From Candidatus Methylomirabilota bacterium (GTDB lineage: Bacteria; Methylomirabilota; Methylomirabilia; Rokubacteriales; DASRDR01): a stretch of 40,347 nucleotides of DNA. The stretch covers positions 1 through 40,347 of the forward strand of contig DASYQW010000030.1 of NCBI GenBank assembly GCA_036005065.1, written 5' to 3'. Under the pieces are notes generated by a model. That model saw only the letters and a program-made list of their open reading frames with translations, searched no databases and had not been told where the DNA came from. How positions within the stretch are numbered: the first letter of the stretch is position 1; each line of letters begins with the position of its first letter. Both the position numbers and the translations under genes were made by a program. Below are positions 1,076 to 38,577 of this stretch, piece by piece.

Positions 1076-1097
1076 CTCAGTCAGTCCCTACGCCATT

Positions 1098-1213
1098 TCG
1101 GGGGGTCTCGGAAGACCCCCCGATAATCGGTTGCGGCCGCACAGCCGCCGCTCGGAGCGCTGCCCGACGCGCCGCACGCTCGGAGCGAGCTCCCGGTTAC
1201 TCCGACAGCCTCC
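1098..1213 (+). repeat. Intergenic modular repeat, copy 1a (head at dnaJ start)
   Basis: Full-length copy reading on the plus strand. The head is a perfect 11-bp hairpin (1098-1108 with 1113-1123, loop CGGA). The arm is 1133-1151 (GCGGC paired with GCCGC), followed by CTCGGAGCG. The tail TTACTCCGACAGCCTCC ends at 1213. Bases 1127-1170 match 43 of 44 bases of the reverse complement of 5561-5604, which fixes it as one family. The head lies 22 bases from the dnaJ start codon, so the dnaJ mRNA would carry the element in antisense orientation in its leader. Confidence 0.8.
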
Positions 1214-1238
1214 TGGGCGGTTTCCGGCTCCTCCTTGG

Positions 1239-1247
1239 ATTGTAGCA
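1239..1247 (-). promoter_or_regulatory. Candidate extended -10 promoter for the dnaJ-like gene
   Basis: On the minus strand the sequence reads TTTGCTACAATCC, that is TG-N-TACAAT, an extended -10 element. No convincing -35 lies 17-18 bases upstream. It sits in the non-repeat middle of the 1076-1425 gap. A transcript from it would begin near 1232 and run through repeat copy 1a before reaching the start codon at 1075, giving a leader of roughly 155 bases with two strong hairpins. Confidence 0.4.
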
Positions 1248-1335
1248 AACCCGACAGGGGGGCCGGTCCGGACTGGGGCGGCCCGCTGGGCGCCGTCGGA
1301 ACGACCAGGCGCAACGGACCGCGCAACCGCCAAGG

Positions 1336-1420
1336 ATTGGTGGTCCGCTCCGAGCGGCGGCTGTGCCGCCGCAATTGTCCTGGGGGAGGTCTCGGAGGAG
1401 GCCGTCGAGGCCCCCTCCGA
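1336..1420 (-). repeat. Intergenic modular repeat, copy 1b (head at htrA stop)
   Basis: Copy reading on the minus strand, immediately after htrA. The head hairpin is 1394-1403 with 1409-1418 (one mismatch; loop TCGAC in the htrA sense). The arm hairpin is a perfect 8-bp stem, 1354-1361 with 1365-1372, loop TGT on the plus strand. Next comes CTCGGAGCGGACCACCAAT, which matches the block after the arm in copies 2a and 6. No good tail is seen. The head probably terminates or protects the ftsH-htrA transcript, but there is no T-run. Confidence 0.75.
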
Positions 1421-1425
1421 CTGCC

Positions 1426-4904: not shown

Positions 4905-4933
4905 TTGACAGCCGGGAGGCGACGGCGTATGGT
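4905..4933 (+). promoter_or_regulatory. Sigma70-type promoter of the small secreted protein gene
   Basis: Perfect -35 TTGACA (4905-4910), 17-base spacer, and -10 TATGGT (4928-4933) on the plus strand. Its -35 is only 29 bases from the divergent ftsH -35. Transcription would start near 4940, which places an in-frame GTG (4941) almost exactly at +1 and an ATG (4947) at about +7. Confidence 0.6.
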
Positions 4934-5336
4934 GAGAGCCGTGAGCATGGCCATCCGAATCCTCTTCGCCGGCGCCGGGTTGCTCGGGACCCTGTTCCTC
5001 GGCGGAGGCGCCCGGGCCGAAGAGTCTGCGCTCCCCGCCAGCCCGGGTCTGGACCTGTCCATGCGGGCCCGCGCCCTGGGCGTCGTGCCGGAGCCCTACT
5101 CGGCGGCGACCCTCGGTCTGGAGCCGATGCAGGCGCCCACCGGGGCCGGCATCACGCGCACGCCGCGCCTCGCGTCCAGCCGCGGGTCCGGCGTATACAT
5201 CAGCGTGATCGTGTGCGATGCCGACGGCGTGGATCGCGTCTACACGGTCCGCCTCGACGACGCCGGGACGCTGCCCGAGGGCACGCTCCGCGGCACCGCC
5301 GGGCCGGGCCACCTCTTCGTCCCCGGCCGCCCGTAG
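4929..5336 (+). CDS. Small secreted protein of unknown function
   Basis: About 135 aa. An N-terminal signal peptide (a basic start, the hydrophobic core ILFAGAGLLGTLFLGGG, then ARA and a cleavage site before EES) indicates export. The mature part is short and has no recognised domain. It contains a hydrophobic beta-like segment GVYISVIVCDADGVDRVYTV near the middle and ends GHLFVPGRP. The start is uncertain. ATG 4929 has GGGAGG nine bases upstream, but that lies inside the spacer of a strong promoter and ATG 4929 overlaps its -10. If that promoter is used, translation must start at GTG 4941 (leaderless) or ATG 4947. It diverges from ftsH. The TAG stop is followed within 6 bases by repeat copy 2a. 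Confidence 0.65.
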   Translation: MVRAVSMAIRILFAGAGLLGTLFLGGGARAEESALPASPGLDLSMRARALGVVPEPYSAATLGLEPMQAPTGAGITRTPRLASSRGSGVYISVIVCDADGVDRVYTVRLDDAGTLPEGTLRGTAGPGHLFVPGRP

Positions 5337-5342
5337 ACAATC

Positions 5343-5476
5343 GGGGCCTCGACGGCCCCCTCCCAGACCTCCCCCCTGGAGATGAAAATTGCGCGGCCGA
5401 AGCCCGCGCTCGGAGTGGAACACCAACCGTCGGCGGCTCGGTGAGCCGTGGCGCGCGGTCACTCCGACAGCCTCCG
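5343..5476 (+). repeat. Intergenic modular repeat, copy 2a (head at secreted-protein stop)
   Basis: Plus-strand copy. The head hairpin GGGGCC (5343-5348), loop TCGAC, GGCCCC (5354-5359) is followed by CAGACCTCCCCCC, as in copy 1b. A degenerate arm lies at 5391-5409. Then comes CTCGGAGTGGAACACCAACC, shared with copy 6, and the tail TCACTCCGACAGCCTCC ending at 5475. It faces copy 2b tail to tail. A further TCGAC-loop hairpin lies between the tails at 5486-5507. Confidence 0.75.
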
Positions 5477-5515
5477 AGGATCGTCGGAGGGGCCTCGACG
5501 GCCCTCCGCGGAGCT

Positions 5516-5640
5516 AGGAGCGTTTCGGAGTAACCCGGAGGTTCGCCCAGAGCGGGCCATGCGTCGGGCAGCGCTCCGAGCGGCGGCTGTGCCGCCGCAA
5601 CCGAGGGGGGGCATCGGGGGGGTCTTCCGAGACCCCCCGA
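5516..5640 (-). repeat. Intergenic modular repeat, copy 2b (head at TPM-gene stop)
   Basis: Minus-strand copy. The head hairpin is 5617-5625 with 5630-5638, loop CGGA in the gene sense. A perfect 8-bp arm follows (5580-5587 with 5591-5598), then CTCGGAGCGCTGCCCGACGC. The degenerate tail GTTACTCCGAAACGCTCC lies near 5516-5533. The head begins 4 bases after the TAG stop of the upstream gene. Together with copy 2a it fills almost all of the 308-base gap between two convergent genes. Confidence 0.8.
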
Positions 5641-5644
5641 AGAA

Positions 5645-6100
5645 CTACCCCAGGCTCACCTCGTCGCTCAGCTCGTCCCGGTCGTCGGGGGCGCGTGGAA
5701 AGTGGCGTCGTAGCGTCTCGCCCACGTCCCGGACCGCGGAGGTGATCCCGTCGCGGGGGCGCCCCTGCCGGAAGTGGGCGACCATCATCTCTTTGAGCGA
5801 CTCCCAGTATTCGTCGCTCACCCGCGCGTGGACGCCCGCGTCCCCGATCACCGCGAGCTTCCGGTCCTCGACGGCCAGGTAGATCAGGACGCCGCTGCGG
5901 TGCGCCGTGCGGGTCATGCCCAGGCGCTCGAACAGCGCCACGGCCCGGGCCATCGGGTCCCCGGGACAGCGGGCGTCCAGGTGGACCCGGATCTCTCCCG
6001 ACGTGGCGGCCTCGGCTTCCACGATGGCGCGCCGCACCGCCTCGAGGTCGCCGTCGCTCATGAAGCCCCGCACCCAGCCGGGAGGCCGCGCCCTGGCCAT
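5645..6100 (-). CDS. TPM-domain protein, soluble (second of a pair)
   Basis: 151 aa. The segment from about residue 18 onward (LEAVRRAIVEAEAATSGEIR) is typical of TPM (DUF477/TPM_phosphatase) domains, which accompany LemA genes. There is no signal peptide, TM segment or glycine-rich tail, unlike the upstream paralogue, so it is probably cytosolic. The biochemical role of the family is not firmly known. The ATG at 6098-6100 has a strong AGGAGGG about 6 bases upstream; a later Met at residue 14 is a weaker alternative. It starts 11 bases after the upstream TPM gene and is the last gene of the lemA-TPM-TPM set. The TAG stop is followed after 4 bases by repeat copy 2b. Confidence 0.85.
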   Translation of the reverse strand: MARARPPGWVRGFMSDGDLEAVRRAIVEAEAATSGEIRVHLDARCPGDPMARAVALFERLGMTRTAHRSGVLIYLAVEDRKLAVIGDAGVHARVSDEYWESLKEMMVAHFRQGRPRDGITSAVRDVGETLRRHFPRAPDDRDELSDEVSLG

Positions 6101-6111
6101 GCCCGCCCTCC

Positions 6112-6846
6112 TCACCACTCCCCGCTGGCGCCGCCGCCGCCGAAGCTCCCGCCACCCCCGCTGAAGCTGTCCGACGACGACGAGCCCGACCCGGAGGAGT
6201 CCGAGCCACCCCACGACCCCGAGACGGGGGCCCAGCCCGCCCCGCGGCCGGTCCAGCCGCCCCGGGCGGCCCGACGGAACTGGGCCATCGCCATGACCAG
6301 CACCACGCCGAAGACCAGCAGCATGACGGCGGGGATCACGTACCAACCCGCCCTTCCCGAGTCGGGCCGCGAGACCGGTCGCTGGTACGTGCCGGCGAGG
6401 GTGGCGGCGATCGCGTCGAGGCCGCCCTCGATCCCCTCGGCGAACCGGCGCTCTCGGAAGCGTGGCGCCACCACATCCCGGATGATCGAGGAGGCGGTGG
6501 CGTCGGTCAGCGTCGCCTCGAGCCCATAGCCCACCTCGAGGCGCATCTTGCGGTCCTCGAGGAAGACGAGAAAGATGACGCCGTTGTCGAGCCCCTTCTG
6601 GCCGATCCGCCAGGCCTGGGCCAGCCGGATGGAGTAGTCCTCGAGGTTCTCGCCCCCCAGTGACCGGAAGATCGCCACCACGACCTGATTCGAGCTGGTG
6701 CGTTCGCGCTCGGCGAGTTTCCGCTCGAGCCGGTCGCGCTCTGCTGCCGTCAGCGCGCCGGCATAGTCGTTGATGCGCCGCGTCGGCGGCGCCGGAACGG
6801 CGAGCTGGGCGGCGGCGGCCAGGAGGATGGCGATGACCAGCGGCAC
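6112..6846 (-). CDS. TPM-domain membrane protein (YgcG-like) with Gly/Ser-rich tail
   Basis: About 244 aa. An N-terminal signal peptide (PLVIAILLAAAAQLAVP) precedes an exported TPM domain (about 25-150; RINDYAGALTAAERDRLERKL, and RLAQAWRIGQKGLDNGVIF, a family hallmark). One TM helix lies at about 170-190 (WYVIPAVMLLVFGVVLVMAM). The C-terminus is a Ser/Gly-rich low-complexity tail ending GGGGSFGGGGASGEW. This layout is standard for the LemA-associated YgcG/DUF477 group. The start is set at a GTG (6844-6846), the only in-frame start that gives a signal peptide, although no good ribosome site precedes it. It lies 65 bases after lemA and 11 bases before the second TPM gene, so it is surely co-transcribed with both. 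Confidence 0.85.
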   Translation of the reverse strand: MPLVIAILLAAAAQLAVPAPPTRRINDYAGALTAAERDRLERKLAERERTSSNQVVVAIFRSLGGENLEDYSIRLAQAWRIGQKGLDNGVIFLVFLEDRKMRLEVGYGLEATLTDATASSIIRDVVAPRFRERRFAEGIEGGLDAIAATLAGTYQRPVSRPDSGRAGWYVIPAVMLLVFGVVLVMAMAQFRRAARGGWTGRGAGWAPVSGSWGGSDSSGSGSSSSDSFSGGGGSFGGGGASGEW

Positions 6847-11600: not shown

Positions 11601-12460
11601 CAGGCCGCCGGTTCGCGAGCCCGGCCGAGGCCGCGCGCCACCAGGGCCCGGACCATGCCGCGGCGGTAGTCGTGGCTGCCCCGGACGTCGGTGATGGGCC
11701 GAGCGGCGGCGGCCGCCAGCTCCGCCGCGCGGGCGATCCGGTCGAGGGCGAGGGGCTGGCCCACCAGCACCGCTTCGGCGTCGGGCACCCGGAACGGCCG
11801 TGGCGCGACCGCGCCGAGCGCGATCGCCGCCGCCGCGCAGCGCCCCTCCGCGTCGAGGGCGACCCGGGTTGCGACGCTCACCACCGCGATGGCGCCACCG
11901 CGCTTCAGCCCGAGCTTGTAGAAGGACTGGTGGCCGCCCGCCACCGGCGTCACGACCGCCCGGACCAGCTCCCCCGTCTGGAGCGCGGTGCGACGGGGGC
12001 CCAGCAGGAATTCCGCGAGGGCGAGGACCCGCTCGCCCCCGGGGCCCGCCAGGACGACCCGGGCGTCGAGGACCAGCAGGGGGACCGCGAGGTCGGCGCC
12101 CGGGCTCGCGTTGGCCAGGTTGCCGCCGAGCGTCGCCTTGTTGCGGGTGAGGAAGTCGGCGAAGTCGTGGGCGGCCTGGCGGAGAGCGGGCAGCCGCTCG
12201 GCCACCAGCGGAGAGGCGAGGAGCTCGCCCACGGTCACGCCACCGCCGAGGCGGAGCCCGTCCTCGCCGCTCGCGACGCCGCGGAGCTCGGGAAGCTCGG
12301 AGACGTCCACGAGCATCCGCGGCATCTGGCGTCGTTCCCGCAGGTCCACCAGCAGGTCGGTCCCGCCGGCCAGCGGGCGCGCCTCGGGGTTTCCCCCGAG
12401 GAGCGTGATCGCCTGGCCGAGCGAGGCCGCCCGGTGGTACTCGAAGCGCGGCAACAGCAT
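11600..12460 (-). CDS. FAD-binding subunit of the molybdenum hydroxylase
   Basis: 286 aa. The FAD-binding motif AGGTDLLVDLRE lies near residue 30 and the second FAD-contact motif TLGGNLANASPGADL near 105. The CO-dehydrogenase flavoprotein C-terminal domain occupies the last 100 residues. The ATG at 12458-12460 (MLLPRFEYHR) matches family N-termini. It is the first gene of the five- or six-gene minus-strand run down to 5645. There is no Shine-Dalgarno: the start is preceded by GACTGAC and, 7 bases away, by an 11-bp hairpin whose 5' arm holds the only GGAGG. No promoter was recognised in the 67 bases upstream. Confidence 0.93.
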   Translation of the reverse strand: MLLPRFEYHRAASLGQAITLLGGNPEARPLAGGTDLLVDLRERRQMPRMLVDVSELPELRGVASGEDGLRLGGGVTVGELLASPLVAERLPALRQAAHDFADFLTRNKATLGGNLANASPGADLAVPLLVLDARVVLAGPGGERVLALAEFLLGPRRTALQTGELVRAVVTPVAGGHQSFYKLGLKRGGAIAVVSVATRVALDAEGRCAAAAIALGAVAPRPFRVPDAEAVLVGQPLALDRIARAAELAAAAARPITDVRGSHDYRRGMVRALVARGLGRAREPAA

Positions 12461-12527: not shown

Positions 12528-14834
12528 TCAGGGGACGGTGCTGGCGGCGACGAAGACCCCGCCGGTGAAGCGCGAATCGTAGGGGAAGAAGCTCCGGATC
12601 GGCGTCCCCGTCGGACCGTCGAACACCCGCACGTGCGGGCCGCCCCCGGGCCCGGCGCCGGTGATGACGTCGGCCTTGTTGTCGCCGTTGATGAACCCGG
12701 CCGCCACCCGGACGCCGCCGCGGAAGCGCGGATCGTAGGCGAAGAATCCCCGGATTTCCACGCCGGTGCCACCGTCGAAGACTCGCACGTGCGGCCCGCC
12801 GCCGGCCCCGGCGCCCGTGATGATGTCCGCCTTGCCGTCGCCGTTCACGTCGCCGGTCGCGACGAAGACCCCGCCGTTGAAGCGGGGATCGTAGGCGAAG
12901 AACGAGCGGAGCGAGGTCCCACTGACCCCGTCGAAGACCCGCACCTGCGGGGAGCCCGTGGCCGCGCCCGTGACGATGTCGGCTACGCCGTCGCCGTTCA
13001 CATCACCGGCCGCTACCGTGACGCCGCCCGTGAACGTCGTGTCGTAGGCGAAGAAGTTTCGGATCATCGCACCGCTCACCCCGTCGAAGGCGCGGACCTG
13101 CGGGCCCCCGCCCTGACCCGGCCCGGTGACGATGTCGGCCACCCCATCGCCGCTGACGTCGCCCGCCGCCACGAACACTCCACCGGTGAAGCCCTCGGCG
13201 TAGGCCAAGAAATTGCGGATCAGCGCGCTCGTGCGGCCATCGTAGATCCGAACCTCGGGGGTGCCGCCCGGGCCGGCTCCGGTGATGAGGTCCGGGACAC
13301 CATCGCTGTTCAGGTCGGCGGCGGCCACGGTCACCCCGCCCCGGAAGGTCGTGGCGAAGGCAAAGAAGCTCAGATCGCCGGCGCCGGACTCGGCGTGGAA
13401 GCTGCGCACGTGCGGCCCGCCGCCCCGCCCGGCGCCCGTGACGAGGATGTTGTCCACCTGGACCGTCCACAGCTCGATCCCGCTGGTGCCGTCGTTGGCC
13501 TGGAAGACCAGCGTGCCCTGCAGGTTCGTCAGCTCCAGCGGGTTCGAGCTGCCGGACCCGGGGTTGATGTCCGTGACCAGCGCCGTGCCGGCCGTGGTGC
13601 CGGTGCTCCGCCAGAGCTCCCGGCCGCTCTCGTTGGTCGCGGCGAAGTAGAGGACGCCGTCCACGTTCGTGAGGCCGCCCGGCGACGAGCTGCTGGCCCC
13701 GGGGCCGATGTTCCGCACCAGCACCGTCCCGGTATCCGTCCCGTTGCTCTTCCAGAGCTCGTCCCCGTTCGTCGGCTCGGTCGCCCCGAAGAAGAGCGTC
13801 CCGTTCACGTTGACGAGGTCGTGGGGGCTCGAGCTGGCCGCGCCCGGGTTGATGTTCTTCACCAGCGTGGTCCCGGTGTCCGTCCCGTTGCTCTTCCAGA
13901 GCTCATCCCCGTTCGTCGGCTCGGTCGCCCCGAAGAAGAGCGTCCCGTTCACGTCGACGAGGTCGTGGGGGCTCGAGCTGGCCGCGCCGGGGTTGATGTT
14001 CTTCACGATCGTGGTCCCGGTCTCCGACCCGTTGCTCTTCCAGAGCTCGCGGCCATTCACGCTCTCGTCGGCCGTGAAGAAGAGCGTCCCGTTGACGTTG
14101 ACCAGGTTGTCAGGACTGGAGCTCCCGGCTCCGACCACGATGTCCTTCACGACGGCCGTGCCGCCGTCCGACCCGTCGCTCTTCCAGAGCTCGGTCCCGG
14201 TACTCGGGTTGAAGGCCGTGAAGAACAGCGTGCCGTTGACGTTCGTCAGGTGATCGGGGGACGAGTTGCCGCCCAGATTGATGTGCTTGACGATGACCGT
14301 TCCGGTCTCCGTTCCGTCGCTCTTCCAGAGCTCGACGCCGCTCGTCCCGTCGTCGGCGGCGAAGAAGAGCACGCCGTTGACGTTGGTCAGGTTGTGCGGG
14401 CTCGAGCTGGCCGCCCCCGCCTGGATGTTCTTCACCAGGACGGTCCCGGCCTCGGTGCCGTTGCTCTTCCAGAGCTCGAGACCGTTGACCCCGTCGGTGG
14501 CCGCGAAGAACAGGGTGCCGTTGACGTTGGTGAGCTCCTGCGGCACCGAGCTGCCCGGACCGGGGTTGATGTCCCTCACCCGCACGGTTCCCGCCGCCGA
14601 TCCGTCGCTCTTCCAGAGCTCGATGCCCGTCGAGCCGTCGTTGGCCGCGAAGAAGGCCGTGCCCCCGACGGCCGTGATGTCGGTGGGAACAGAGTTGGGC
14701 AGGCCGGGGTTGATGTCTTTGACGAGCACGGCCCGGGGCGGGAGCGCCGCCAGGCCGATCCCCGGCAGGCCGAACTGGGCGACCAGCAGCACCACCAGGA
14801 CCACCGCTTCGAATCGGGTCGGTCGGGACAGCAT
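12528..14834 (-). CDS. Secreted repeat protein with ELWxxxGT and FG-GAP/VCBS-like repeats
   Basis: 768 aa. A signal peptide or TM segment (AVVLVVLLVAQFGLPGIGLAA) is followed by eight units of about 47 residues with ELWKSxGT, then a degenerate ninth ELW. Next come about five units of 52 residues containing calcium-type loops such as DVNGDGVAD plus GGGPHVRVFDG and FFAYDxxF. Both repeat types form beta-propeller blades, so this is probably a large extracellular or surface protein. There is no sortase, autotransporter or type IX sorting tail; it ends GGVFVAASTVP. The ATG start (14832-14834) has a good GGGAGGAGA upstream. It follows the MoaD-like gene by 43 bases. Function unknown. Confidence 0.85.
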   Translation of the reverse strand: MLSRPTRFEAVVLVVLLVAQFGLPGIGLAALPPRAVLVKDINPGLPNSVPTDITAVGGTAFFAANDGSTGIELWKSDGSAAGTVRVRDINPGPGSSVPQELTNVNGTLFFAATDGVNGLELWKSNGTEAGTVLVKNIQAGAASSSPHNLTNVNGVLFFAADDGTSGVELWKSDGTETGTVIVKHINLGGNSSPDHLTNVNGTLFFTAFNPSTGTELWKSDGSDGGTAVVKDIVVGAGSSSPDNLVNVNGTLFFTADESVNGRELWKSNGSETGTTIVKNINPGAASSSPHDLVDVNGTLFFGATEPTNGDELWKSNGTDTGTTLVKNINPGAASSSPHDLVNVNGTLFFGATEPTNGDELWKSNGTDTGTVLVRNIGPGASSSSPGGLTNVDGVLYFAATNESGRELWRSTGTTAGTALVTDINPGSGSSNPLELTNLQGTLVFQANDGTSGIELWTVQVDNILVTGAGRGGGPHVRSFHAESGAGDLSFFAFATTFRGGVTVAAADLNSDGVPDLITGAGPGGTPEVRIYDGRTSALIRNFLAYAEGFTGGVFVAAGDVSGDGVADIVTGPGQGGGPQVRAFDGVSGAMIRNFFAYDTTFTGGVTVAAGDVNGDGVADIVTGAATGSPQVRVFDGVSGTSLRSFFAYDPRFNGGVFVATGDVNGDGKADIITGAGAGGGPHVRVFDGGTGVEIRGFFAYDPRFRGGVRVAAGFINGDNKADVITGAGPGGGPHVRVFDGPTGTPIRSFFPYDSRFTGGVFVAASTVP
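13747..14034. repeat. Near-identical 144-bp tandem duplication inside the repeat protein gene
   Basis: Two adjacent 144-base units (13747-13890 and 13891-14034) each encode one 48-residue ELWKSNGTDTGT... blade. By eye they differ at only about 8 positions, far less than the other blades, which points to recent duplication or gene conversion. A third, more diverged unit follows in phase from 14035. Confidence 0.8.
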
Positions 14835-15793: not shown

Positions 15794-15829
15794 CCGCCCC
15801 TCCTGCGCCCGGCCCCCTCCCATGCTCCA

Positions 15830-15951
15830 GGAGCCTGTCGGACTAATGAGAACTGGAGGCCGGAATTCTTGGCTGCGACAGCTTCCGAGCGGCGGCTTGG
15901 CCGCCGCAACCGACGGGGGGGCATCGGGGGGGTCTTCCGAGACCCCCCCGA
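15830..15951 (-). repeat. Intergenic modular repeat, copy 3 (head at SDR stop)
   Basis: Complete copy on the minus strand. The perfect 12-bp head (15924-15935 with 15940-15951, loop CGGA in the gene sense) starts 4 bases after the SDR stop. The 8-bp arm is 15889-15896 with 15900-15907. CTCGGAAGCTG follows, then less conserved sequence and the tail TTAGTCCGACAGGCTCC ending at 15830. It occupies nearly all of the space between the SDR and RidA genes, and the head would make a strong though T-poor terminator for the long hyu operon. Confidence 0.8.
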
Positions 15952-15955
15952 GGAT

Positions 15956-16735
15956 CTAAACATCCCAGCCGCCGTCGACGGTCAGGCACTGCCCCGTCAT
16001 GTTCCGCGACTCGTCGGTGCACAGGAAGCATACCGCGTTCGCCACGTCGTCAGCGGTCGTGACCCGGCGGAGGGCCATCTCCTGGACGTATTCGGCGTAG
16101 ACCTGCTCGGGTGTCCACCCGCGCTTCCGCGCCTTCTCGCGGCAGAGCCGGTCCATCCGTGGCCCGCCGACGATCCCCGGGGCCACGCAGTTCACGGTGA
16201 TGCCGTGAGGGCCGACCTCGAGCGCGACCGTGCGGGTGAAGCCCCGCACGGCCCACTTCGACGACGAGTAGGCCGCCCGCAGCTTGTAGCCGCGGAGCCC
16301 GGAGGTGCCCGCGATGTTCACGATCTTCCCGCCGCCCTGCCGGAGCATGACGGGTACCACGTGCTTGGTCGGGAGAAAGGTCCCCCGGAGGTTCACCGCG
16401 AGCACCTCGTCCCAGTCCTCCAGCTTGATCTGGTGGACGGGCGTCTCGATGGGGCCCGTCGTCCCGGCACAGTTCACCAGGACGTCGACCCGCCCGAAGG
16501 TGTCGACCGTGGCCTCGACCAGCGCCCGCACCGAGGCCTCGTCGCGCACGTCGGTCGGCACGACCAGTGCCCGGCGCCCGAGCGCGCGGACCTCGGCGGC
16601 CACCACCTCGAGGGGCGGCGCCTCCCGCGCCGCCAGCACCAGGTCGGCGCCCTCGCCGGCGAGGCGCCGGACGATCGCCTCTCCCATGCCCTTGGCGGCG
16701 CCCGTCACGATCGTCACCCGGTCGCGAAGCTTCAT
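15956..16735 (-). CDS. Short-chain dehydrogenase/reductase (SDR)
   Basis: 259 aa classical SDR. The Rossmann nucleotide motif TGAAKGMGE is at 11-19, followed by VNCAGT and the catalytic set Ser (in NIAGTSG) and YSSSK. The end TGQCLTVDGGWDV is typical. It oxidises or reduces a hydroxy/keto group with NAD(P); the Ala-Arg segment after beta-2 does not settle the cofactor. The ATG (16733-16735) overlaps the hyuB stop as ATGA, so it is translationally coupled and likely acts on the same pathway, perhaps on a product of HyuAB. The TAG stop is next to repeat copy 3. Confidence 0.93.
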   Translation of the reverse strand: MKLRDRVTIVTGAAKGMGEAIVRRLAGEGADLVLAAREAPPLEVVAAEVRALGRRALVVPTDVRDEASVRALVEATVDTFGRVDVLVNCAGTTGPIETPVHQIKLEDWDEVLAVNLRGTFLPTKHVVPVMLRQGGGKIVNIAGTSGLRGYKLRAAYSSSKWAVRGFTRTVALEVGPHGITVNCVAPGIVGGPRMDRLCREKARKRGWTPEQVYAEYVQEMALRRVTTADDVANAVCFLCTDESRNMTGQCLTVDGGWDV

Positions 16736-20485: not shown

Positions 20486-20508
20486 CTATCGATCAGCCGG
20501 CCGGCGCG

Positions 20509-21768
20509 TCACTTGCGCTCGGACCATTTCGGAATGGGGTACAGGACCTGGCGGGTCGCCACATCCAAGGGGTAGATCGTGTGGTATTCGCCGCCCACGA
20601 CCTGCTGGAGGATCGCCTTGACCCCGGTATTCTGGCCGGAGTCGTCGAACCGGACGCCGGTCCACGGCATGATGAGCTGATCCGGCGGAAGGTTGGTCTC
20701 GCGAAGGGCCTTCCCGATCGCCTCGGGCCTGGTCGAGCCCGCCCGGTTGATGGCGTCGGCCAGGACCATGAAACCGGTGAAGGCCCGGGCCGGGACATCG
20801 GACAGGTCCCGCCCCCCCGAGTGTCTCCGGAACAGCTCGTTGACGGGCGTCACCAGGGGCTTGGCCTTGGCGAGGTCGAGCGCGAACGGCGCCCGGGTGA
20901 TGTGGCCCTCGGCATCCTTGCCCGCGAGCTTCAGGAAGGTCGGATCGGTCCAGCCGGCGTTCTGGGCGACGAGCAGCCTCGGGTTGTAGTCGAGGTTCCG
21001 GGCCGTCTTGATGAACAGCACGGCGTCCGACGTGTAAGAGGACGGCAGCAGCACCTCGGCGTTCGCCGCCTTCAGCTTGCTGACCTCGGCGTCCAGCGAG
21101 GTGGTCTGGGCCCGATAGGCGATCCGGGCCGCGACCTCGTAGCCGTACTTCTTGGCGAGCTCCTCCTGGACCTTCGCCGAATCGGTGCCGAAGAGCGTGT
21201 CCTCGTGGAGGATGGCGACCGTGCGGAGCTTGATCCCGCGCTTCTTCTCCAGCTCCTGCAGGAAGTCGAACATGACCTGGCTGAAGTGCCCGTCGTGGGG
21301 GCTCGTCCGGAAGAACCACTTGAAGCCGCGCGCGGTGAGCCCCGGCGACGAGGACTCGGCGTTGAGGAAGGGCACGCCCATGCGCTCGGCCACCTGGCTG
21401 GCCGTCGCCGTCACGCTGGAGAAGTAGGCCCCGAAGAGGGCATGGACCTTGTCCTGGGTGATCATGCGCTCGGCGTCGGCCTGGCCCGTCGCCGGCTTCC
21501 CCTGGTGGTCGGCGATGACCAGACGGATCTTGGCGCCGCCCAGATTCGGGAGTCCTCCGCCTTTGGCGAGCGGCAGCGGGAGCGGGGCGCCGCTGTTGAT
21601 GAGGTCGACCGCCGTCTTGACGGCGGCGACGGAATCGAGTCCGACCTGGGCCACCGGGCCCGACATCGGATAGAGCACGCCGATGACGACCTCGTTCTGC
21701 GCGAGGGCCGGGGCCCCGGCGCCCACGACGAGCCCGAGCGCGGCCAGGAGCCGTCCGAGTCGCGCCAT
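20509..21768 (-). CDS. ABC transporter substrate-binding protein, branched-chain amino acid/amide type (second of tandem pair)
   Basis: 419 aa type I periplasmic binding protein (LivK/UrtA-like). A signal peptide (LGRLLAALGLVVGAGAPALA) precedes NEVVIGVLYPMSGPVAQVG, the usual start of the mature family. Later segments KWFFRTSPHDGHFSQ and YPIPKWSERK are shared with the neighbouring paralogue. The ATG (21766-21768) has GGAGGAGG about 9 bases upstream. It lies 26 bases after the paralogue and just before hyuA. No matching permease or ATPase genes are present, so the pair depends on membrane parts encoded elsewhere. Ligand unknown; amide, urea-like or cyclic compounds fit the context. Confidence 0.9.
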   Translation of the reverse strand: MARLGRLLAALGLVVGAGAPALAQNEVVIGVLYPMSGPVAQVGLDSVAAVKTAVDLINSGAPLPLPLAKGGGLPNLGGAKIRLVIADHQGKPATGQADAERMITQDKVHALFGAYFSSVTATASQVAERMGVPFLNAESSSPGLTARGFKWFFRTSPHDGHFSQVMFDFLQELEKKRGIKLRTVAILHEDTLFGTDSAKVQEELAKKYGYEVAARIAYRAQTTSLDAEVSKLKAANAEVLLPSSYTSDAVLFIKTARNLDYNPRLLVAQNAGWTDPTFLKLAGKDAEGHITRAPFALDLAKAKPLVTPVNELFRRHSGGRDLSDVPARAFTGFMVLADAINRAGSTRPEAIGKALRETNLPPDQLIMPWTGVRFDDSGQNTGVKAILQQVVGGEYHTIYPLDVATRQVLYPIPKWSERK

Positions 21769-21794
21769 GACCGACACCTCCTCCGGCCGAGCGC

Positions 21795-23063
21795 TCACCG
21801 GCGCTCGGACCACTTCGGGATCGGATAGATCACATCCCGGGTGGCCATCTCGAACGGCCACACGGTGTAGTACTTGCCGCCCTGGAGCTGCATGATGATC
21901 GCCCGCACCCCCACGTTCTGGCCGGTCTCGTCGAACCGGACGCCGCTCCACGGCATCAGGAGGTCGGCGGGCTTGATGTCGGTCGCGGTCAGCGCCCTCC
22001 GGATCGCCTCCGGCTCCGTGGAGCCGGCTCGGTTGAGGGCGTCGACGAGCGTCACCATCCCGGTGAAGGCGCGGGCGGGCAGGTCATAGAGATCCTTCCC
22101 CGAGCGCGCCCGGTAGGGTCCGTTGAGGGCCTTGGCCACCGGGTTCTTGTCGATCAGATCCGAGGGAAAGGGGGAACGGGACATGTAGCCCTCCGAGTCC
22201 TTCCCCGTCTGCTCGATGAACTTGGGATCGATGTGGCCCGCGTTCTGGGCGATGATCATCTTCGGGTTCCAGTCGAGCTCCTTGGCCGTCCGCACGAACA
22301 GGACGGCGTCCGACTGGTACGAGGTCGGCAGCCAGACGTCCGGATTGGCGGCCTTGAGCTTCTGGACCTCGGCGGTCAGCGAGGTGCTGTTGGCCCGGTA
22401 CGGGAAGTCGGCGACGAGCTTGTAGCCGTACTTCTGGGCGAGCCCCCGCTGCACCTTGCCCGAATCGGTCCCGAACAAGGTGTCCTCGTGCGAGATGGCG
22501 AGCGTCTCCAGCTTGATCCCCTTCTTCTTCTGGAAGTCGGCCATGAAGTCGAACATCGCCTGGCTGAAGTGCTCGTCGTGAGGCGAGGTGCGAAAGAACC
22601 ATTTGAACCCGCGCCGGGTCAGACCCGGCGACGCCGACTCCGCGGTCAGGTGAGGGACGGCGAAGCGCTCGGCCACCTGGCTGGTGGTCATGGTCACGCT
22701 GGACTGCCACGACCCGATCAGCGCGTGGACCTTCTCCTGAGTGATGAGCCGCTCGGCCTCGGCCTGGCCCAGGTCCGGCTTGCCCTGATGATCCACGAAG
22801 ACGAGGCGGAGTCGGGCGCCGCCGCCCACGCCGGGGAGACCCCGGAGCTTCTGGTAGAAGGCGCCGGGGAGCATGGGCTCCTTGCCGTTTACCATGTCGG
22901 CGAACACCTCGTAGACGTGCTTCTCGTCGATCCCGGCGGTCGCCGTCGGCCCGCTGAGCGGATACATGAGGCCGATCACGACCTCCTTCGGCTGGGCGGA
23001 GGCCGGCCGGGCCGTGAGCGCGAGGGCGGCGACGACGAGCGCGAGTGTCACCCGCTTCAGCAT
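21795..23063 (-). CDS. ABC transporter substrate-binding protein, branched-chain amino acid/amide type (first of tandem pair)
   Basis: 422 aa. Signal peptide (LALVVAALALTARPASA) and mature start KEVVIGLMYPLSGPTATAG. It is clearly a paralogue of the next gene, sharing the fold and segments such as KWFFRTSPHDEHFSQAMFDF and VIYPIPKWSERR, so the pair arose by tandem duplication. It includes an extra KEPMLPGAFYQKL insert region near residue 60. The ATG (23061-23063) has GAGGAGG. It is the first gene behind a near-consensus promoter at 23114-23143 and heads the unit SBP-SBP-hyuA-hyuB-SDR. Confidence 0.9.
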   Translation of the reverse strand: MLKRVTLALVVAALALTARPASAQPKEVVIGLMYPLSGPTATAGIDEKHVYEVFADMVNGKEPMLPGAFYQKLRGLPGVGGGARLRLVFVDHQGKPDLGQAEAERLITQEKVHALIGSWQSSVTMTTSQVAERFAVPHLTAESASPGLTRRGFKWFFRTSPHDEHFSQAMFDFMADFQKKKGIKLETLAISHEDTLFGTDSGKVQRGLAQKYGYKLVADFPYRANSTSLTAEVQKLKAANPDVWLPTSYQSDAVLFVRTAKELDWNPKMIIAQNAGHIDPKFIEQTGKDSEGYMSRSPFPSDLIDKNPVAKALNGPYRARSGKDLYDLPARAFTGMVTLVDALNRAGSTEPEAIRRALTATDIKPADLLMPWSGVRFDETGQNVGVRAIIMQLQGGKYYTVWPFEMATRDVIYPIPKWSERR

Positions 23064-26110: not shown

Positions 26111-26853
26111 GCGGTGGCCTCGGCGCGCTCGGGCTCGATGCGCGGGCGATAGGTGCCGGCCGCGACCGCGTCGGCGATGGCGCGAAACTCATCGGCATCG
26201 ATGGGGCGGAAGCGGACGCGATCGCCCGCCCGGAGCAGAATCGGCTCGGCACTGGCCGGGGCGTAGAGGGCGAGCGGCGTGCGCCCGAGGACCCAGAAGC
26301 CTCCCGGGCTCTCTACCGAGTAGATCGAGCACTGGCTGCCGCCGATCCCCACGCTCCCGGGCGGCGTCTTCGTCCGCGGCCGGTCCAGGCGCGGGATCGT
26401 GAGCCGCTCGGGCATGCCGGTCATGTAGGGGAGCCCCGGCGTGAAGCCGACGAAATAGACGAAGTACTCGGCGCCGGCGTGGAGCCGCACGACCTCATCC
26501 GGAGCGAGACCGAGTCGCCGCGCCACTTCCTCGAGGTCGGGGCCGTGCTCGCCTCCGTAGGCGCACGGCAGCTCGACCCGCCGCCCGGGCGGCGGCGCTG
26601 CCGCGGCCAGACGCGGGACGAGGGCCTGGAGGTGGCCGAGAAGGTCCTCCCAGCCGAGCACGAGCGGATCGTAGGAGACGAGCAGCGATCGGAACGTCGG
26701 CACCGTCTCGACGATCCCGGGCAGGCGCGCCTCGGCGAGCAGTCGTTCCAGCGTGCGCACCCGGGCGTTCGCCTCGCGGGAGATCTCGTCGGCCAGCTCC
26801 ACGGACACCGCGAGGTCGCCCGCCGGAAGGACGCGCGGTTCGGCGTAGATCAT
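26107..26853 (-). CDS. pxpB: 5-oxoprolinase subunit PxpB (KipI family)
   Basis: 248 aa. Family motifs: GDLAVSVELADEI near the N-terminus, LLVSYDPL, LPCAYGGEHGPDLEEVA, YFVGFTPGLPYMTGMPE, and TKTPPGSVGIGGSQCSIYSVESPGGFWVLGRT. It is one half of the PxpBC pair. The ATG (26851-26853) gives the expected N-terminus but lies directly against repeat copy 6: the base before it is the end of the CCCCCTCCC stem, so there is no free Shine-Dalgarno. An upstream in-frame TTG would add 34 repeat-encoded residues and is unlikely. Confidence 0.92.
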   Translation of the reverse strand: MIYAEPRVLPAGDLAVSVELADEISREANARVRTLERLLAEARLPGIVETVPTFRSLLVSYDPLVLGWEDLLGHLQALVPRLAAAAPPPGRRVELPCAYGGEHGPDLEEVARRLGLAPDEVVRLHAGAEYFVYFVGFTPGLPYMTGMPERLTIPRLDRPRTKTPPGSVGIGGSQCSIYSVESPGGFWVLGRTPLALYAPASAEPILLRAGDRVRFRPIDADEFRAIADAVAAGTYRPRIEPERAEATA

Positions 26854-27007
26854 GGGAGGGGGCCATTGATGCGCGGGCTTCGCCCGTTGGGGCCCCCTCC
26901 CAAACCCGAGGAGAAGGGTGCGCGGGCGAAGCCCGCGCTCGGAGCGGAGCACCAACCGTGGGCGGTTAGGGGATCGCGAAGCGCCTGATTAATCCGACAG
27001 CCTCCTA
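26854..27007 (+). repeat. Intergenic modular repeat, copy 6 (head at pxpB start)
   Basis: Full copy on the plus strand filling the gap between the DUF1445 gene and pxpB. The head is a compound hairpin: an outer 11-bp stem GGGAGGGGGCC (26854-26864) with 26891-26901, and inside it a small CGGGC-TTC-GCCCG hairpin. The arm is an 8-bp stem 26920-26927 with 26931-26938. CTCGGAGCGGAGCACCAACC follows, and the tail TTAATCCGACAGCCTCCTAG ends at the stop of the upstream gene. It reads opposite to the genes around it. Confidence 0.78.
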
Positions 27008-27009
27008 GA

Positions 27010-38497: not shown

Positions 38498-38577
38498 CGG
38501 ACCGCTCCGAGCGCGGGCTTCGCCCGCGCAACCCTCCCGGGGGGAGGTCTCGGGGGGGGGCGCTGCCCCCCTCCGAA
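38498..38577 (-). repeat. Intergenic modular repeat, copy 7 (head at binding-protein stop)
   Basis: Minus-strand copy between the binding-protein and permease genes. The head is a variant hairpin GGGGGGC (38555-38561), loop GCT, GCCCCCC (38565-38571), followed in gene sense by CGAGACCTCCCCCC. The arm is a perfect 8-bp stem 38511-38518 with 38522-38529. CTCGGAGCGG follows. The tail is not recognisable. The head starts about 5 bases after the TAG stop. Confidence 0.72.

Follow-up and report, generated by a model that had tools for sequence, protein, structure and literature searches.

The two intergenic gaps at 1076–1425 and 5337–5644 of the window (the whole stretch of DNA analyzed, a single 40-kb contig of 40,347 nt) are, on what we regard as the likely reading, made up of individual copies of a noncoding, hairpin-rich miniature element of about 130 nt that inserts at CTAG. 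The element is probably mobile and REP-like. The genome to which the window belongs totals 5.63 Mb in 419 contigs and is 98% complete, and the family was collected from it with two nhmmer profile searches, seeded with copies 2a and 2b of the second gap. All four gap copies (1a, 1b, 2a, and 2b) were recovered by the searches with both seeds, at 68 to 94 bits and E values of 2e-19 to 2e-27, and the similarity among them is far above chance.

The second gap is filled from end to end by nhmmer matches and their boundary sequence, bearing out the sequence-only reading, which had described repeated elements as the makeup of such gaps and, in this one, copies 2a and 2b placed tail to tail around a central hairpin. 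Copy 2a (5337–5478, plus strand, type B; nhmmer match 5343–5477, 68 bits; model hit 5343–5469; alignment A1) consists of hairpin 1 (GGGGCCTCGACGGCCCC), the C-tract CCTCCCCC, hairpin 2, and a tail terminating in CACTCCGACAGCCTCC, and is immediately preceded by the stop TAG of a 143-aa open reading frame (4905–5336, plus strand). Copy 2b (5513–5644, minus strand, a full copy of type A; 94 bits by nhmmer; model hit 5523–5637) lies immediately after the stop TAG of a gene with a TPM domain (5645–6346, minus strand; domain E value, 4e-18) and retains the CTAG of its right end at 5514–5517. Between the two copies are 35 nt that include a degenerate hairpin (5485–5508, assigned to no strand; CGGAGGGGCCTC/GACGGCCCTCCG), with 12-nt arms that are 83% complementary and no loop counted; judged by eye from its resemblance to type B, it reads as a stray, shortened copy of hairpin 1. 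A terminator scan of the gap returned one terminator-like match, on the minus strand at 5409–5391, which is hairpin 2 of copy 2a in antisense.

In the first gap, an inverted tail-to-tail pair was likewise described in advance, and nhmmer located both members; the apparently unique center, put at 120 bases, measures only about 70 nt. Copy 1a (1090–1219, plus strand, type A with the C-tract deleted; nhmmer match 1098–1215, 72 bits; model hit 1101–1207) is inverted, starts some 15 nt upstream of where dnaJ begins, and is bounded by CTAC on the left and by CTGG, a decayed CTAG, on the right. Copy 1b (1286–1425, minus strand; nhmmer match 1417–1294, 68 bits; model hit 1295–1415) has a type B front and a divergent tail and lies immediately after the degP stop TAA. 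The gap separates codirectional genes, degP and dnaJ both being on the minus strand, and is hence not convergent. Inspection of its unique center (1220–1285, minus strand) revealed an extended −10-like sequence, TGCTACAAT, at 1247–1239, which is a possible candidate for the dnaJ promoter; a consensus scan did not pick it up.

Three further copies lie in the window: a single copy at 15826–15957 (minus strand, 70 bits by nhmmer), whose left boundary TTAG follows a coding stop TAG; a single copy at 26846–27008 (plus strand, 57 bits), with an extra hairpin within hairpin 1 and CTAG as its right boundary; and a partial copy at 38499–38566 (minus strand, 37 bits), which holds hairpins 1 and 2 only and has a coding stop TAG 7 nt upstream of its hairpin 1. 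The window also contains two tandem arrays in one long open reading frame (12543–13444 and 13466–14713, repeating about every 156 and 144 nt) and two adjacent segments with 71 to 73% identity (20497–21184 and 21783–22467) that are possibly duplicated genes.

Across the 1.56 Mb of the genome searched there were 161 family matches, which extrapolates, with contigs sampled in number order, to about 470 copies per genome; some copies are 93 to 96% identical to one another. The element carries, in order, hairpin 1, a C-tract, hairpin 2, and a folded tail, and occurs as two main types, A and B, together with mosaics, the tail terminating in TTACTCCGACA...CTCCTAG. A full-length consensus fold recovers hairpins 1 and 2 only; a tail stem, TCGGAG/CTCCGA, appears in single-sequence folds. 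By eye, no T-run follows hairpin 1 or hairpin 2, so that neither has the U-tract of an intrinsic terminator. A scan of Rfam at gathering thresholds matched no family, two exact patterns had no match in IMG/VR, and a literature search on intergenic hairpin repeats in Rokubacteria found nothing. Two copies (L061, 10940–11124, and L040, 18357–18533) have a GC-rich hairpin of about 60 nt inserted between hairpins 1 and 2. In alignment A2, the linker CCTCCCCC that follows hairpin 1 mirrors that hairpin's 3′ arm, CCCCCTCC, so that a triplex, or a pairing that competes, could conceivably form.

Counts of neighboring copies bear on whether the inverted pair is itself the unit, as it is in BIMEs or REPINs. 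When copies within 250 nt of each other were grouped, the same 1.56 Mb yielded 135 clusters: 119 single copies, 12 direct tandems, 4 tail-to-tail pairs, and no head-to-head pairs. The window holds two of the four tail-to-tail clusters, and gap 2 folds strongly as a whole (308 nt as RNA; −174 kcal/mol, z = −3.8), both of which speak for a paired unit. However, direct tandems are three times commoner than tail-to-tail clusters, the members within a pair are unlike and so are the centers, and RAYT was not found in this genome; we therefore consider a paired unit highly improbable and rejected it on the cluster counts. The likeness to BIMEs drawn in the sequence-only reading thus does not hold, the unit being the single element of about 130 nt. 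With only 4 of 135 clusters tail to tail, the inverted arrangement is incidental, and pairs would form when one gap receives two copies. The folding model leaves it possible that gap 2 gives rise to a long bidirectional RNA or a cruciform.

The ends of the element are fixed and asymmetric. CTAG stands at a fixed position at the left end of 49 of 97 copies, at the right end of 33 of 83, and at both ends of 26 of 74; control windows about 100 nt outside the element contained none. Where both are present, the interior spans 115 to 137 nt. The left boundary is conserved as CTAG-RTCAT; at the right end no matching guide is visible of the kind that, in IS200/IS605 elements, stands as a tetranucleotide 5′ of each terminal hairpin and pairs with the cleavage site. 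CTAG is missing from about half of the left ends, those of all four gap copies among them. CTAG itself is depleted about tenfold in this genome: base composition predicts about 1,600 occurrences in 580 kb, and 165 are present. Tandem copies can have one CTAG in common at their junction (L067, 15699/15837).

Many of these boundaries coincide with the ends of genes. Where the left end adjoins a coding stop, the stop lies 7 to 10 nt from the model start in 49 of 56 cases, and TAG is used by 41 of the 56 left-adjoining genes (73%), compared with 110 of 381 genes (29%) genome-wide, a baseline that rests on approximate gene calls (p = 9e-12). CTAG, or another stop, sits 6 to 8 nt before the foot of hairpin 1. 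In some copies, the right-end CTAG contains the stop of a gene that converges on the element (ispG, rpiB, and moxR, identified by reading translations), and the orientation of the element relative to the gene is therefore not fixed. With CTAG avoided in this genome and often made up of a C and a TAG stop, the element would settle outside genes without destroying the stop; the palindromic CTAG would also suit overlapping convergent stops.

The same position could reflect RNA elements selected at gene ends, terminators or 3′-end stabilizers, which were copied by recombination and not by transposition. The frequent placement right behind stop codons and the fixed distance from stop to hairpin fit this explanation, as does a two-hairpin core that is found throughout the order with compensatory changes. 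It is nevertheless improbable in our estimation, as both orientations relative to the gene occur, one copy sits between rplU and rpmA and another precedes the dnaJ start, CTAG also flanks ends that have no gene next to them, and hairpins 1 and 2 are by eye without a U-tract. The two orientations and the rplU-rpmA copy weaken any fixed 3′-end element, and since one copy lies between these two genes, a strong terminator role is unlikely. On the likely reading, insertion at CTAG, G/C hairpins that come to lie next to a stop would probably protect the 3′ end of the transcript, a role reported for REPs.

The order-wide core was compared with the long form in order-level relatives, the search for relatives having returned none from the same genus or family. 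In these relatives, hairpin 1, CCTCCCCC, and hairpin 2 are present and the long tail is absent; core copies often lie immediately after stop codons, and a left-side CTAG was found at 0 of 26. Over 20 core sequences, 97.7% of cells are paired and two-sided changes occur at 5 pairs, and in a control in which the pairing partners were slid, both the pairing and the two-sided changes were abolished. Hairpins 1 and 2 are thus conserved structures. As far as the sequences of the order-level relatives compared indicate, the CTAG-bounded long form is found only in this genome.

The junction of rplU and rpmA was the only empty site obtained, and it was compared by gap length, as divergence is too high for the join to be read base by base. 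In this genome the two genes are 204 nt apart, with a copy immediately after the rplU TAG; in 27 of 29 order-level relatives the spacing is 1 to 8 nt. One of the remaining two has an apparent overlap (L250, −44 nt), which was scored as leaving no room and may be an artefact of frame or stop calling, and the other is an exception with 76 nt (L246, genome G025), which shows that not all relatives have a closed junction. The 76-nt gap appears to repeat the rplU end (ATCGAGGTATAAGGC), with no element evident. The closed or nearly closed junction in relatives supports the insertion of a copy here. Two contig ends (L071, 16498–16946, and L219, 1–469) carry this same junction with 92% identity, the differences lying mostly within the element.

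Mapping the gaps in related genomes had been proposed as a check, and for gap 2 it succeeded only in part: none of 30 relatives has the element behind its TPM orthologue, but gene order there differs and no empty site was gained. Similarly, the element was absent downstream of gcvPB at 29 order-level loci, within the downstream sequence examined. Since relatives' gene order differs at both genes, these results record the absence of the element and not empty sites, and the TPM and gcvPB/glyRS gaps were dropped as base-exact empty sites. A 3.4-kb contig of the assembly (C34, L157) is 82 to 87% identical to the gcvP region of L133 (6488–9634) and is probably derived from a sister population; with 87% identity over gcvPB, it was considered as an empty site and rejected, as it stops just before the 3′ end of the gene.

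For the miniature element inserting at CTAG, we favor a single-strand, hairpin-directed insertion, because its ends are asymmetric, show no visible terminal inverted repeat, and have hairpins nearby. Such a reaction would recognize the hairpins and resemble that of IS200/IS605 or REP elements, and CTAG would be both the flanking target and the right terminal tetranucleotide. A search of this genome for a Y1 transposase or RAYT (PF01797) had no match, with positive controls; the assembly being 98% complete, such a gene may have been lost from it. At the Y1 loci of order-level relatives, the element was present at 0 of the 15 loci fetched, and a RAYT/Y1 partner was rejected as absent from this genome and unlinked to the element at those 15 loci. 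No autonomous copy of the element was seen. These results speak against the reading, as do the left ends without CTAG, the single empty site, the 76-nt gap of L246, and the 25 of 74 full copies that adjoin no gene end. More tentatively, and with less than even confidence, we suggest that it could form a class of its own among the mobile DNA of the order, which would have arisen from the order-wide two-hairpin repeat and, by targeting the otherwise avoided CTAG, would enter at stops without disrupting genes, moved by an as yet unrecognized enzyme.

The main rival explanation takes the element for a MITE whose DDE transposase would duplicate a 4-bp target, CTAG/YTAR; CTAG or TTAG/CTAA at both ends would be the expected remnant. 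A DDE_Tnp_1 insertion sequence of this genome (L294) apparently has CTA(A/G) on its flanks, and its end sequence, CCCGCATTATGCG, lies directly after the right-end CTAG of one copy (L138, 12024; around 12158–12292, the end of contig C26). The L294 copy itself is flanked by CTAA/CTA and is apparently another CTAR-using element. We nonetheless consider movement by a DDE enzyme unlikely, since by eye there is no terminal inverted repeat: the left end reads CTAG-RTCATTTCGGGG and the right end, reversed, CTAG-GAGTGTGTCGGAG, and the consensus ends (alignment A1) have only TCGGRG in common, 6 to 7 nt inside. The ends of both DDE_Tnp_1 elements found are also unrelated to the element, and these two matches were rejected as parents; the search covered DDE_Tnp_1 alone among DDE families.

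If insertion at CTAG is the right explanation, the choice of target alone, a rare tetranucleotide that is often a stop, would be enough to account for a genome that tolerates hundreds of insertions and for copies that look like gene-end elements. The family would then be a concrete case of REP-like repeats spreading without a recognizable RAYT, and it would advise caution in high-GC genomes, where hairpins next to stops are not necessarily terminators.

REP, BIME, and REPIN sequences with their RAYT (TnpA_REP) are high-copy, extragenic, hairpin-forming repeats with a 5′ tetranucleotide that lie mostly downstream of coding regions, the REP being a palindrome of 20 to 50 nt with GTAG directly before it (PMC8266576, PMC3116915, PMC3733652). 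Our element is likewise present in high copy number (about 470 by extrapolation), extragenic, hairpin forming, tetranucleotide flanked, mostly downstream of coding regions, and probably mobile. It differs in being about 130 nt long, two hairpins plus a folded tail taking the place of the 20- to 50-nt palindrome; in having CTAG instead of GTAG, which stands 6 to 8 nt away from the foot of the hairpin and occurs at either end; and in belonging to a genome in which RAYT (Y1_Tnp) was not found. Most REPIN doublets are arranged in inverted orientation (PMC3116915); compared with REPINs (PMC3116915) and BIMEs (PMC8266576), the element is mostly single and inverted pairs are rare. CGTC-tagged REPs are palindromic repeats without a dedicated transposase (PMC3733652), and the element shares the palindromic repeats with them but has another tag and a larger unit. 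Bacterial MITEs that duplicate a 4-bp target are also short, noncoding, and numerous, and their two ends carry identical 4-bp sequences, whereas the element has no visible terminal inverted repeats and the search for DDE_Tnp_1 found no matching insertion sequence. Nonautonomous elements of the IS200/IS605 type have hairpin ends and a target tetranucleotide (PMC6006769); the element shares with them asymmetric ends, subterminal hairpins, the lack of a visible terminal inverted repeat, and a tetranucleotide that flanks the left end and closes the right end, in the proportions given above for left, right, and both ends, but its left and right hairpins are unlike and its genome has no Y1 match. 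In its working the element resembles REPs or miniature derivatives of IS200/IS605; on the features tested it belongs to neither.
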